DNA of 56,900 nucleotides, from the NCBI GenBank assembly GCA_019510485.1, contig JAEKKI010000145.1, positions 1 to 56,900 of the forward strand, read 5' to 3'. Below the pieces are notes generated by a model, which was not told the DNA's origin, searched no databases, and saw nothing but the letters and a program-made list of their open reading frames with translations. This document shows positions 2-50,816 of the stretch, one piece after another. The position numbers were made by a program, and so were the translations under genes. This DNA comes from Catenulisporales bacterium. Its GTDB lineage: Bacteria > Actinomycetota > Actinomycetes > Streptomycetales > Catenulisporaceae. Each line of letters opens with the position of its first letter. Within the stretch, counting starts at the first letter, position 1.

Positions 2-2824
<2,823 letters not shown>

Positions 2825-46931: not shown

Positions 46932-48416
46932 GTGGCCGACCAGAACCGCAACACTTATCTTGACGACGTCTTGGCCCAGCAGGAGCAGTTGGAAGTCGAC
47001 TTGAGGTCCAAGAGTTCCCGCTACGGCGCAGCGGCCTCGACGGCACCGCCGCAGCCGCCGTCGGCGCCCGGCGCTCCCAAGCCCGCGCTGCTCGCCGAAC
47101 CGTCCCGGGCCGCGCCGGCCCCGGCCCGGGGACGTGCCGCGCGCCTGGAGCGGTTCGCCGCCGAGGCGGCCGCCGGCCGCACCGTGGCGCCGGCCGGGAC
47201 CAACGCCGTGGAAGTCCGCATCACCGGCGTCGGACGCTGGAAGACGGTGCTGGTGCCGCCGAACGCCTTCGTCGTCCACACCCGCCGCGGCGAGGACGAG
47301 CCCCGCCACATCGGCCTCGGCGTGTCGTTCCGTTACCGGCCGGCCACCGACTCGTTCCTGGTCGTGCCCGGCGCGATGCAGACCATCCTGCTCAACGCGT
47401 TCTGCATCTGCAGCGAACTGCAAGGCGTGCTGGTCCAGGCCTACGTGCAGTGGATCATCCAGGACTTCGCCACCGCCTACCGCAAGCTGGACTTCTCAGA
47501 CCCCGAAGACCCGATGCGGCTGGTGAACCTGCAACTGCGCGAGCAGGCCGAGGCCGCCATCAAGGACAAAGTCGCCACCATGAGCGTCCACGAGGTGCTG
47601 TCCGACCGGCAGCCGATCATCGAGGAGCTCACCGCCCGGCTGCGCGGCGTCGCCGAAGGCTCCGCCGAGAGCGCGGGCGACGGCTCCCGCGGCAACGCCG
47701 ACGGCGGCCTGGGGCTGCGCATCGTCACGGTGCAGATCAAGGAAGCGGTCGTCAGCTCCAAAACCCTGTGGGAGAACCTGCAAAAGCCTTTCCGCACCGA
47801 ACAAGCGCGGCTGGCGGCGCTGGCCGAACTGGCGGCCGAGGGCGCCGTCACCGAGAGCCGGATGGCCGAGGCCCGCAGGCAGGAGACCCGGCGCCTGGGC
47901 GACGAACGCGACCTCGGCGAGTTCCGCGCCACCAACGCCGCCCGCCAGTTCGACCGCGACAGCACGGAGCAGGCCCGCCGTGACGAGCGCACCCAGGAGA
48001 TCGCCCGCAAAAACGCGGACGCCGCCCACCAGACCCGTCGGCACGCGCTCGCCCTGGAACGGGAGCGGCACGAGCAGGAAAGCGTCATGGCCCGGCTGCG
48101 GCTGGAGGAGGAGCAGGAACTGGCCCGGCTGCGGCTGGAAGCCGAACTCGCCGCCGTCCGGTCCCGCCACGCCGCCGAGCACGAACGCCAGCTGATGGAG
48201 CTGGAACGCGAACGCGTACGCGCCGAGATCGCCAACGCCCGCACCGCCGCCGCCCTGCAAGCCGAGCTGATCGGGACGCTGCCGGACATCGTGGAGAAGC
48301 TGCCGGCGCCCTCGGAATACAAGGCCGTGACGGTCGGGGGATCCGACACCGCCTCACTCGCCGGGATCGTCGCCCAAGTGTCAGCGGTTGTCAGCGCCCT
48401 GAAAACGGCGGAATAG
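46932..48416 (+). CDS. Soluble SPFH (band-7) domain protein with long coiled coil
   Basis: A 494-residue protein. The first ~85 residues are Pro/Ala-rich with an opening MADQNRNTYLDDVLAQQEQ. An SPFH-like domain follows (~88-290: VLVPPNAFVVHTRRGEDEPR, VSFRYRPATDSFLVVPGAM, YVQWIIQDFATAYRKLDFSD, DKVATMSVHEVLSDRQ). Then comes a charged Arg/Glu/Ala coiled coil (~295-445) and a hydrophobic C-terminal end. There is no membrane helix, so unlike flotillins it is probably cytosolic or peripheral and oligomeric. GTG 46932 follows AGGGGGT. It is in line with the next gene and the two tRNA-like RNAs, with no terminator between. SPFH/slipin proteins are known neighbours of RNA-repair and Y-RNA loci in other bacteria, which is relevant here. 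Confidence 0.82.
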   Translation: MADQNRNTYLDDVLAQQEQLEVDLRSKSSRYGAAASTAPPQPPSAPGAPKPALLAEPSRAAPAPARGRAARLERFAAEAAAGRTVAPAGTNAVEVRITGVGRWKTVLVPPNAFVVHTRRGEDEPRHIGLGVSFRYRPATDSFLVVPGAMQTILLNAFCICSELQGVLVQAYVQWIIQDFATAYRKLDFSDPEDPMRLVNLQLREQAEAAIKDKVATMSVHEVLSDRQPIIEELTARLRGVAEGSAESAGDGSRGNADGGLGLRIVTVQIKEAVVSSKTLWENLQKPFRTEQARLAALAELAAEGAVTESRMAEARRQETRRLGDERDLGEFRATNAARQFDRDSTEQARRDERTQEIARKNADAAHQTRRHALALERERHEQESVMARLRLEEEQELARLRLEAELAAVRSRHAAEHERQLMELERERVRAEIANARTAAALQAELIGTLPDIVEKLPAPSEYKAVTVGGSDTASLAGIVAQVSAVVSALKTAE

Positions 48417-48524
48417 CGCAGCGGCGGAAATCGCCTACAAACAGCGCGAGGGCGTCTGCCATCATCGGGGCACCGCAGAACATCCACTTCACATTCAAGC
48501 AATCGATCTCAGGGGGATGTCACC

Positions 48525-49259
48525 ATGGCCACCAAGCTGAGCCAGATCATCGCGATCGAGAAGGGCGTCAAGAGCAAGTCCTACGCCGACCTCACCCAGG
48601 CCCACCACGACGTCCAGAAGCCGGCCCTGCTCACCGGCCTGACCCGCACCTACCAGCCCAAGGACGAGGACGGCGAGCAGCTCCCGCCGGAGTCCACCCG
48701 GGTCCAGGTCAAGGCCGAGGACGTGCTGCGCCAGATCGCCGCCAACCTCACCCGGCTGTTCGACGTCACCGCCACCAAGGACTGGGCCAACTGCACGGCG
48801 CGCGCCGACGTCGTGGTCGAGGGCCGCACCCTGCTGCGCGACGTCCCGGTGTCCTACCTGCTGTTCCTGGAGAAGCAGCTCACCGATCTGCACACCTTCG
48901 TCAAGAAGCTGCCGGTGCTGGACGCCGCCGAGTCCTGGACCCACGACCCGTCCACCGACTGGTACCGCACCGAGGCCGTCCGCACCCTGCGCACCAAGAA
49001 GGTGCCGCGCAACCACGTCAAGGCCGAGGCCACCGAGAAGCACCCGGCCCAGGTCGAGGTCTACTACGAGGACATCGCCATCGGCTACTGGACGCAGACC
49101 AAGTTCTCCGGCGCGCTGCCGGCGCAGCGGGTGAACGAGCTGGCCGAGCGGGTGGACAAGCTGAGCCAGGCGGTGAAGTTCGCCCGCGAGGAGGCGAACA
49201 CCTTCGAGGTCACCGACCAGCACGTCGGCGAGGCGGTATTCGGGTACCTGTTCGCCTGA
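48525..49259 (+). CDS. Conserved actinobacterial protein of unknown function
   Basis: A 244-residue soluble protein with no signal or membrane helix. I recognise it as a conserved actinobacterial family (MATKLSQIIAIEKGVKSK start; VTATKDWANCTARADVVV; SYLLFLEKQLTDLHTFVKKL; KKVPRNHVKAEATEKHPAQV; VNELAERVDKLSQAVKFARE) but know no function. It is rich in Lys and Glu with an even alpha/beta pattern. AGGGGGATGTCACC precedes the ATG. It lies 108 bases after the SPFH gene, and its stop is only 22 bases before the first tRNA-like RNA. The protein is a good candidate to bind or process those RNAs, but that is inference from position. Confidence 0.8.
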   Translation: MATKLSQIIAIEKGVKSKSYADLTQAHHDVQKPALLTGLTRTYQPKDEDGEQLPPESTRVQVKAEDVLRQIAANLTRLFDVTATKDWANCTARADVVVEGRTLLRDVPVSYLLFLEKQLTDLHTFVKKLPVLDAAESWTHDPSTDWYRTEAVRTLRTKKVPRNHVKAEATEKHPAQVEVYYEDIAIGYWTQTKFSGALPAQRVNELAERVDKLSQAVKFAREEANTFEVTDQHVGEAVFGYLFA

Positions 49260-49268
49260 TCGCTCCGC

Positions 49269-49274
49269 TAGGAT
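49269..49274 (+). promoter_or_regulatory. Putative -10 element for the tRNA-like RNA transcript
   Basis: TAGGAT sits seven bases before 49282, where the outer helix of RNA A begins. A start at 49281 or 49282 would match the folded 5' end. The -35 region is weak. Confidence 0.4.
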
Positions 49275-49281
49275 CGGCGGC

Positions 49282-49416
49282 GAGCGACCAAGCTTAAGAT
49301 GACGCTTGAGATTGAAAGACACCGTGACAGTGGGGGTTCGAATCCCTCTCTCCGCATAGCGTGCGGAGGTAGCCCAAGTGGTAGAGGCAGCGGTGAGCAG
49401 ACTCAGACTCTCGCTC
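49282..49416 (+). ncRNA. Permuted tRNA-like RNA, module A
   Basis: This folds as a tRNA whose halves are in reverse order. T-arm: stem 332-336 with 344-348 (last three digits, all 49xxx), loop TTCGAAT. Acceptor 3' strand TCTCCGC (349-355) is joined by ATAGCGT to the acceptor 5' strand GCGGAGG (363-369); seven pairs with one G-U, eight if A356-T362 is counted. Then TA (as tRNA positions 8-9), a D-arm with loop containing GTGGTAGA and a 3-bp stem (372-374 with 386-388), and an anticodon-type stem GCGGTG (390-395) pairing back to CACCGT (320-325). The variable loop is GACAGT. The ends extend outward: TTGAG (306-310) with CTCAG (402-406) and GAGCGA (282-287) with TCGCTC (411-416). There is no U33-like anticodon loop, so decoding is unlikely. 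The form resembles the tRNA-mimic part of bacterial Y RNAs. Confidence 0.82.
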
Positions 49417-49452
49417 CAAGCTAAGTCCTCGCCGTCCATCGCCGGATCGACC

Positions 49453-49560
49453 GGAAGCGGGTCTTTCACTGAGGTTGCAGGTTCGAGCCCTGTTCCCTGC
49501 TCCATCGTGCGGGGATAGCTCAATAGGTAGAGCGCAGTGTCATCAGGCTAATCCGCTTCC
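49453..49560 (+). ncRNA. Permuted tRNA-like RNA, module B
   Basis: The clearest of the two (positions 49xxx). Terminal helix of ten pairs: GGAAGCGGGT (453-462) with ATCCGCTTCC (551-560). Inner stem CACTG (467-471) with CAGTG (535-539), all Watson-Crick, in the place of the anticodon stem. Variable loop AGGTT, five bases as in class I tRNAs. T-stem GCAGG (477-481) with CCTGT (489-493) and loop TTCGAGC. Acceptor 3' strand TCCCTGC (494-500), then TCCA like a discriminator plus CCA, TCGT, and acceptor 5' strand GCGGGGA (509-515), seven pairs with one G-U. Then TA and a canonical D-arm GCTC-AATAGGTA-GAGC (518-533). Every tRNA helix is present with correct lengths, only permuted, with the acceptor end closed by a loop and the anticodon loop open. 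Confidence 0.87.
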
Positions 49561-49614
49561 TTAAACGCCATCGGCGTGCGCACAACGACGGCACCACGCA
49601 TTGAGCAGCGTGGA

Positions 49615-49656
49615 GAGGCCCAGGGCGGGCAAAACCCTGGGCCTCGCCCCTTTCTT
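49615..49656 (+). terminator. Intrinsic terminator of the SPFH/tRNA-like RNA unit
   Basis: GAGGCCCAGGG (49615-49625) pairs with CCCTGGGCCTC (49635-49645), a perfect 11-bp stem, followed by GCCCCTTTCTT. The 54 bases between module B and this hairpin contain a further GCGTG/CACGC pairing near 49574-49600. Confidence 0.85.
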
Positions 49657-50816
49657 CAGAGCTCTGGTTCCCCCAGGCCCGGGCCCGCGTACTCGCGCCC
49701 CTCGGCCTCGGCCAGCTTGCGCCCGGCGTTGAGCTGGAACGGGCTGATACCGCCGGCGTCCCACGGCCCCACGCTGCCGGCCGCGACCGCCTCGCCGCTC
49801 TTGTCCGGCAGCATCAGCTCCCGGCGAAGCACCGCCACCGGCTTGTCCGCCACGGCGAACCAGTCGGTCGCCATGAAGTCGTTGCTGCCCGTGCACAGCG
49901 CCGCCCGGCGCAGCGCGTCGCCGAAGCGCGCGGCCATCCCCGGCCGCGACAGGTGTCCCTTGTCCGCCTGGAACAGGCCCGCGCCGGAGGCCAGCGACCC
50001 GGTCTCGAACAGGCTCACCACCATCGCCAGCAGCGAGAACGCGTGCAGGTCGTCGTTGGCGCGGGCGATGAACGCGAAGACCTCGATCTCGGACTCCACG
50101 CGGGTGCCGTAGTCGGCCAGGATGTGGACCCAGTCGTGCTGCGCCAACAGCGGCGGGGCGGAGCCGGGGGAGCCCGGGAAGGAGAAGCCGCGGGATTTGT
50201 AGAAGTCATACACGCCGCGACCCAGGGTGCCGGCCGGCAGCTCGCCGAGGGAGGCCCACCGCGCCGCCAGCGCCGGGTCGTTCTCCACCGGCGTCCACGG
50301 GCTGTTGAGCGCGCCGTCGCCGACGTGCAGGTGATCGACGTGCGCCAGGTCGAAGTCGTGCAGATATCCGTTGCGGTCGAAGTCGATCGCGGCCAGCCGG
50401 CGACCGCTCTCGACGTGGCCGTGCAAGACGTCTTCCAGGTCGTCGTGCACTGACAGCTCAGCGGCGAACTCCGCCACCCGCGCCGCCACTGACACCGGCA
50501 GCGGATCCAGCACCAACTCGGCGGTCACCATCGTCTGCACGATCCGGCCCCGGAACGCCGCGTCGCGCCGATACAAGTCCTGCGCGAGATCCTGCGGACC
50601 ATAAGGCTTGACGGCCAACTCGGCCTGCACCGCCGCCGGATCGACGTCGAACCCGGTCAGCGAGTGGAACATCGCCGCCAGCAGCGTCTGCTGCAACCCG
50701 CTCAGACCGCCTTCCGGCGCCACCGCCGAGATCACGCCGCGCGCCACGCACGCGACCTCGGCAGCGTCCGGGGGCAGCAGCAGGACGGTGTCGGCATCGG
50801 GTAGGGGGACGGGCAT
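49656..50816 (-). CDS. Uncharacterised protein with HDxxH motif
   Basis: A 386-residue soluble protein; I do not recognise a named family. It starts MPVPLPDADTVLLLPPDAAEVAC (in part) and has a helical first half (GGLSGLQQTLLAAMFHSLTGF). The centre contains LLAQHDWVHILADYGTRVESE, an HDxxH metal-site pattern like that of Coq4-type proteins, followed by FAFIARANDDLHAFSLLAMV. A DRNGYLHDFDLAHVDHLHVGDG stretch upstream is rich in His and Asp. These suggest a metal-dependent enzyme, but no reaction can be assigned. Its stop codon lies within the end of the convergent terminator of the RNA unit. Confidence 0.65.
   Translation of the reverse strand: MPVPLPDADTVLLLPPDAAEVACVARGVISAVAPEGGLSGLQQTLLAAMFHSLTGFDVDPAAVQAELAVKPYGPQDLAQDLYRRDAAFRGRIVQTMVTAELVLDPLPVSVAARVAEFAAELSVHDDLEDVLHGHVESGRRLAAIDFDRNGYLHDFDLAHVDHLHVGDGALNSPWTPVENDPALAARWASLGELPAGTLGRGVYDFYKSRGFSFPGSPGSAPPLLAQHDWVHILADYGTRVESEIEVFAFIARANDDLHAFSLLAMVVSLFETGSLASGAGLFQADKGHLSRPGMAARFGDALRRAALCTGSNDFMATDWFAVADKPVAVLRRELMLPDKSGEAVAAGSVGPWDAGGISPFQLNAGRKLAEAEGREYAGPGLGEPEL

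Follow-up and report, generated by a model that had tools for sequence, protein, structure and literature searches.

Two circularly permuted tRNA bodies, module A at positions 49320–49395 and module B at 49467–49539, were found on the forward strand of the window (the whole stretch of 56,900 nucleotides that was analysed), within a predicted RNA of about 380 nt (49278–49657) that lies directly 3′ of a DUF7873 gene and comprises the two heads, a linker and 3′ hairpins, its ends being placed by conservation. This position behind DUF7873 is shared by bacteria and phages, compensatory changes occur in the head and terminal helices of the relatives, and the RNA is found where Ro60 has no match. On balance, we are inclined to the view that the two-headed RNA and the DUF7873 protein work together, the RNA being a Y-RNA-like scaffold that mimics tRNA and does not depend on Ro60, through a putative mechanism that is set out below.

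The DUF7873 gene (48525–49259, forward strand; 244 aa; Pfam PF25283, 398 bits) is the constant neighbour of the RNA and its predicted protein partner. All elements of the RNA lie on the same strand, starting with a conserved 5′ element, GAGCG...AAGCTTAAGATGAC (49282–49303), which was recognised in alignments of the upstream segment and the linker, with the TYGCTC and TCAG motifs of the linker as candidate pairing partners. Module A, delimited by covariation in an alignment of its copies (A3) and by a tRNA-body descriptor, consists of CACCG, a T-arm (GGGGG-TTCGAAT-CCCTC), an acceptor (TCTCCGC-ATAGCGT-GCGGAGG), a 3-bp D-stem and CGGTG; in some Streptomyces loci (L022, L028 and L077) its tRNA-like tip is swapped for a short stretch, with the flanks and module B kept. 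The linker between the heads holds the motif CTCAGACTCTCGCTCCA (49402–49418), strongly conserved in the bacterial and phage alignments. The 5′ element and this part of the linker display the strongly conserved motifs AAGCTGAAACTGA and CAGAYTMTYGCTC, with several mutually complementary stretches in the window and its relatives. A pseudoknot between the two was considered and not adopted, the complementary motifs being present and the covariation too thin to settle the pairing. Module B is enclosed by an outer helix (49440–49445 with 49571–49576) that lies outside the coordinates of the initial annotation, was picked up in a column scan and is compensatory in six of six pairs, then by an internal loop in which the conserved strand ATCGACC (49446–49452), a putative protein site, stands opposite the conserved strand TTAAACGCCA (49561–49570), and then by a terminal helix (49453–49460 with 49553–49560), compensatory in eight of eight pairs. 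Two 3′ hairpins, CCACGC/GCGTGG and GAGGCCCAGGG/CCCTGGGCCTC (49594–49645), were seen in the fold and in the tails of relatives, the loop of the last one being GGATAY in several relatives and not in the window. The conserved single-stranded parts are the linker around TYGCTC, the internal loop (ATCGACC and TTAAACG) and, in several relatives, the GGATAY hairpin loop. A simple scan of 48400–49800 gave no intrinsic terminator and no sigma-70 promoter.

The complete permuted tRNA fold with a sealed acceptor stem that the initial annotation had described was borne out for module B, with canonical helices: an anticodon-type stem of 5, a variable loop of 5, a T-stem of 5 with the T-loop TTCGAGC, an acceptor stem of 7 (49494–49500 with 49509–49515) and a D-stem of 4, with GG in the D-loop. 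The 3′ half comes before the 5′ half, the order being anticodon-type stem, variable loop, T-arm, acceptor strand, the short apex TCCATCGT, acceptor strand, D-arm and anticodon-type stem. The terminal helix, which had been counted as ten pairs, covaries and has eight contiguous pairs and four more past a 4-nt bulge. Folded alone, 49440–49575 returned the module B helices at an unexceptional energy (z = −1.26, 21 of 200 shuffles as good). The whole region of about 380 nt folded with z = −3.04, but its minimum-energy structure cross-pairs the T-arms of A and B and does not form both heads, and the modules therefore rest on covariation and not on thermodynamics. The descriptor, written after the feature had been seen and requiring at least 6 of 7 acceptor pairs and at least 4 of 5 T pairs, scored 21 for B and 20 for A in the window, and in 200 dinucleotide shuffles of the window no hit reached 21 and two were at 20; the comparative evidence is stronger than this chance test. 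ARAGORN, and Rfam at curated thresholds, called nothing in the window. When the bodies were un-permuted by script with a placeholder loop, ARAGORN called one tRNA in each, and none in the bodies as found. At relaxed thresholds the Rfam YrlA model (RF02553) matched module B end to end at 35 bits and module A partially at 15.3 bits; the failure of module B to reach the gathering score of 69 is a weak test, since among ten Ro60 loci (L110–L119) YrlA matches were found just in L118 and L119, also sub-threshold (46.5, 43 and 31.7 bits). The initial annotation had left a choice between a Y-RNA-like mimic and a new class of permuted tRNA-like RNA; the YrlA-like fold held, whereas module B proved to be one half of a two-headed stretch whose constant neighbour, missed at the time, is DUF7873 and not Ro60.

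The TCCA noted earlier at the would-be 3′ end of module B is encoded but not conserved. CCA was present at the apex of 2 of 82 bacterial module B copies and of 17 of the 53 bacterial module A copies (the descriptor found module A in 53 of 82 bacterial loci), and on these counts CCA was rejected as a conserved end; phage copies of module A often encode ACCA. For module A, N73, the base after the acceptor strand, was A in 52 of the 53 bacterial copies; for module B it was U in 68 of 82 and G in 14. Judged by these positions, the heads look descended from two different tRNAs and would need no CCA end.

The proposed covariance model and search for compensatory changes in homologues were run with a positive outcome, the weakest helix being the anticodon-type stem (paired cells: 37% in A4, 66% in A3 and 71% in A6). 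The rows of A3 (31 rows, module A) and A4 (37 rows, module B) were hand-picked from loci where the descriptor scored, the bacterial share being 21 of 81 rows (the window and L002–L081). The non-bacterial rows of A4 were taken from 22 loci examined, minus L096, L097, L098, L100, L103 and L104; L100 had one module hit and L096 has nearly the same sequence as L095. With acceptor and T pairing inflated by this choice of rows, and the terminal helices lying outside the descriptor, 83.1% of the cells of A4 were paired, with compensatory change in 33 of 35 pairs, 268 compensatory cells versus 86.7 ± 8.9 when shuffled and a score of 0.591 versus at most 0.218 when slid, and 94.0% of the cells of A3 were paired, with compensatory change in 16 of 20 pairs and 83 compensatory cells versus 16.2 ± 3.8 when shuffled. 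The viral alignment A6, made up of 124 distinct rows with modules A and B mixed, fitted to the model structure and including weak matches up to E 0.1, had 89.1% of cells paired, compensatory change in 34 of 34 modelled pairs, 1115 compensatory cells versus 364.5 ± 17.7 when shuffled and a score of 0.518 versus at most 0.102 when slid; two D-stem pairs were just 60% paired in it. In an all-against-all column scan of the plain alignments, the acceptor, T-stem, terminal and outer helices of module B ranked highest.

A scan for DUF7873 gave at least 577 relatives, with 80 bacterial loci kept, and the same arrangement 3′ of the gene recurs in Catenulispora, Streptomyces, Kitasatospora, Actinacidiphila and Actinomadura. 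A model of module B (R1), of which the window is a training row (135.2 bits), matched all 80 bacterial DUF7873 loci (20 of them A4 training rows, one cut by a contig end) in addition to the window. Across 147 genomes of the order, every one of the 73 DUF7873 places was followed, 137–286 nt downstream and on the same strand, by an R1 match of at least 60 bits, counted as strong; 72 of the 73 were end to end and the one in G265 covered positions 33–123. Of the 74 strong matches, 73 sat behind DUF7873 in this way. The exception, G326:C309:22340–22498, is a single strong match to module B in a genome where DUF7873 gave no match. Among 246 genomes of the phylum, end-to-end R1 matches were found in exactly the six DUF7873 genomes, and 27 further genomes, without DUF7873, had core-type matches only (31–51 bits). 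The cis order of gene and then RNA fits a dedicated pair.

DUF7873 is also present in 73 phage records, and the gap that follows the gene holds heads, sometimes a single one, in phages infecting Arthrobacter, Gordonia, Rhodococcus, Pseudanabaena, Vibrio, Rhizobium and Klebsiella; the range covers actinobacteria and environmental viral contigs as well as phages whose hosts are actinobacteria, cyanobacteria, Vibrio, Rhizobium or Klebsiella. R1 matched 12 of 12 DUF7873 phage genomes (10 being A4 training rows). The distance between gene and RNA is larger in two phages, about 0.7 kb in PA-SR01 and about 2 kb in a Microcoleus phage. In Microcoleus phage My-WqHQDG, where the tRNA-mimic match is about 2 kb downstream of DUF7873, a HEARO RNA (129 bits; L104 3441–3650) was observed in between and is perhaps an insertion that separated the two. 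In a viral set selected on the protein alone, which holds near-identical pairs, 74 of 80 loci had a match downstream of DUF7873, six of these being core matches only; with training-row contigs and their recognised near kin taken out, 68 of 74 loci matched. Among the six loci without a downstream match, L164 and L179 were matched in another arrangement and in L170 the descriptor hit was partial; L145, L146 and L162 gave no match or descriptor hit downstream of DUF7873. ARAGORN called tRNAs in 35 of the 80 viral loci (137 calls in total, in stretches of up to 3.7 kb, any calls overlapping the RNA itself included) versus 9 of the 80 bacterial loci, whose stretch lengths are unlike the viral ones and where 4 of the 9 overlap the RNA itself; the placement of phage copies beside tRNA genes fits a role in tRNA handling during infection. 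By annotation, the loci of Mimi, Phendrix, NiceHouse and TM39 lie inside tRNA clusters and that of Pam2 lies outside. In the tRNA cluster of Gordonia phage Phendrix, a Rfam tmRNA match of 89 bits (L086 2075–2603) was observed that is absent from the annotated features shown.

DUF7873 was the sole protein family common to all 20 groups in a comparison of 41 loci, all of which had been chosen for DUF7873; the other frames shared among these loci overlap DUF7873 or the RNA, except for an endolysin in three groups. In the family, 6857 of 7999 scored candidates matched. The AlphaFold2 model of the protein is a confident mixed alpha/beta fold (mean pLDDT 90.7, pTM 0.74), and a structure search that included the PDB gave no significant relative and therefore no hint of RNA binding. 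A possible structural relative is A0A7M1RW91 of uncultured phage cr118_1 (BFVD; probability 1.00, E 0.033, TM 0.43/0.56). The literature search found no paper on DUF7873. A defence-system reading was set aside, the protein being without a PADLOC match. The SPFH (band-7) gene at 46932–48416, for which PADLOC gave one weak match (PbeC, E 0.0014), was dropped from the unit because upstream homologues were limited to two Catenulispora loci of the 41 tested. An annotated band-7 (SPFH) gene also occurs near DUF7873 in Rhodococcus phage NiceHouse (L087 5371–6243), as in the Catenulispora window. In L005, the known Streptomyces sRNA scr4677 (Rfam, 199.9 bits; 1830–2084, reverse strand) lies 5′ of the DUF7873 gene and is unrelated as far as seen.

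For the scaffold reading, the stretch would be transcribed together with the DUF7873 message or processed from it, and DUF7873 would bind the conserved internal loop, where ATCGACC faces TTAAACGCCA, and/or the linker. The sealed heads, neither charged nor decoded, may draw in tRNA-handling enzymes or keep them occupied; candidates are modification enzymes, PNPase-type exonucleases and tRNA nucleases. By analogy with YrlA, DUF7873 would take the place of Ro60 in a particle whose heads engage tRNA-handling enzymes, and during phage infection the RNA would serve to adjust or safeguard tRNA handling. A wider claim is put forward tentatively, namely that a new bacterial and phage RNA–protein particle may exist, in which a double-headed permuted-tRNA RNA and its dedicated DUF7873 form a Ro60-free counterpart of the Y RNA particle that, in phage tRNA clusters, may shield or steer tRNA handling.

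The same permuted module and the sub-threshold end-to-end YrlA match would also suit an ordinary YrlA-type Y RNA that serves Ro60 from a distance, with DUF7873 as a mere neighbour, an explanation considered improbable. The source genome does carry a Ro60 gene on another contig (C122). Two more single YrlA-like modules were observed in this genome, at L091 5036–5150 (reverse strand, 35.3 bits) and L092 5547–5656 (forward strand, 37 bits), on contigs C93 and C252, away from the Ro60 contig. In the 147 genomes, DUF7873 was found in 72 and Ro60/TROVE in 80, with both in 45, DUF7873 alone in 27, TROVE alone in 35 and neither in 40 (Fisher p = 0.069). The 45 shared genomes speak for a Ro60 Y RNA, but a TROVE match (E ≤ 0.001) was absent from 27 of the 72 DUF7873 genomes and from 11 of 12 DUF7873 phages. 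None of the 74 strong R1 matches lay within 2.5 kb of TROVE, whereas 52 of 60 among the weaker matches listed did, these 60 excluding module A hits beside strong matches and all being core-only except one in G354. That weak match (37.1 bits), near TROVE, aligns to R1 end to end and counts in favour of an ordinary Y RNA. Against it, Rhizobium phage TM39 (MN988559.1) keeps TROVE (129765–130511) and a core-only match of its own (128833–128903, 0.9 kb away) apart from the DUF7873 RNA (124570–124749), and the Ro60 and DUF7873 systems stand there side by side, separately. The RNA is most probably not an ordinary Ro60 Y RNA.

The main rival is that the heads are decoys that occupy or inhibit tRNA-cutting nucleases, above all in phages, and that DUF7873 stabilises the RNA; it is unlikely, and yet the most serious of the alternatives. 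It would suit the tRNA calls in 35 of 80 viral loci and the several annotated phage loci within tRNA clusters (Pam2 excepted), and competitive inhibition of anticodon nuclease is raised as a possibility for YrlA by Hughes et al. (PMC7790460). DUF7873 as the lone widely shared neighbour family argues against a decoy, as do the conserved linker and internal loops, which would exceed the needs of a mere decoy. Far less probable is that the heads mature into working permuted tRNAs once the acceptor apex has been cut and the ends rejoined for decoding: the acceptor, D, T and variable parts are tRNA-sized, N73 is nearly constant in each head and several phage A copies encode ACCA, but CCA stands at the apex of just 17 of 53 bacterial copies of A and 2 of 82 of B, and two covarying helices hold the open side where an anticodon loop is absent. 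With no anticodon loop, an open side closed off by covarying helices and an unconserved CCA, a decoding permuted tRNA is unsupported, in agreement with the earlier opinion that decoding is unlikely. Hardly credible at all is an origin by chance or from decaying tRNA genes, with the 3′ and 5′ halves of adjacent genes brought together. The YrlA model gave sub-threshold matches in 7 of 14 control genomes, R1 core matches of 31–51 bits turned up in 27 of 246 genomes that are without DUF7873, and four normal-order ARAGORN calls overlap the module A T-arm in the 80 bacterial loci; but for those four loci Rfam gave no tRNA at E values up to 1, no end-to-end match fell outside DUF7873 genomes in the 246, and every modelled pair of the viral set was compensatory. 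This origin was rejected as contradicted by the DUF7873-bound strong matches, the viral covariation and the 246-genome scan.

Y RNAs are understood as partners of Ro60, and here their rare permuted fold is doubled, has another constant protein neighbour and often occurs with no Ro60 match. If the proposed RNA–DUF7873 particle is real, the tRNA-mimic head would be a module used beyond Ro60, DUF7873 would gain its first functional lead, and the purpose of bacterial tRNA-mimic RNAs could then be tested in phages amenable to culture and editing.

In archaea and algae, circularly permuted tRNA genes are well established and need splicing. The RNA shares with them a 3′ half that precedes the 5′ half and the full set of tRNA helices, and differs in having covarying terminal helices in place of an anticodon loop and an unconserved CCA. 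Like tmRNA, it has a tRNA-like part within a longer RNA, but the Rfam tmRNA model was unmatched by the stretch in 17 loci, and the sealed acceptor would not be chargeable as it stands. ROOL and GOLLD are described in PMC12286853 as RNAs of phages and bacteria whose function is unknown and which often lie close to tRNA islands, many GOLLD RNAs exceeding 800 nt; the present RNA is shorter and tied to a protein gene, and the Rfam models of both gave no match at gathering score in the window or in 17 relative loci. The two-headed RNA, its partner gene and its phage spread were not found in Rfam 15 at curated scores, and no description of the RNA turned up in the literature searched. The fold class itself, the YrlA-like permuted tRNA mimic, is already known. 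PMC8394870 and PMC11472068 cite the structure of Salmonella YrlA (PDB 6CU1); the former reports that the stem tethers Ro60 and the tRNA-like head PNPase, and that YrlA is modified by DusA and TruB, and the latter that YrlA aligns with tRNAs as a circular permutation in a topology-independent superposition. With YrlA and the other bacterial Y RNAs of RF02553 the RNA shares a permuted tRNA-like domain of D, T and acceptor arms, a closed acceptor stem and an anticodon side that opens into a terminal stem with an internal loop. It differs from them in length (about 380 nt, by its predicted ends, versus the 90–150 nt given for YrlA in PMC8394870) and in outer parts of R1 that, G354 excepted, fail to match the weaker hits near Ro60, as well as in carrying two heads per stretch, in having DUF7873 and not Ro60 as its constant neighbour and in occurring where Ro60 is unmatched.
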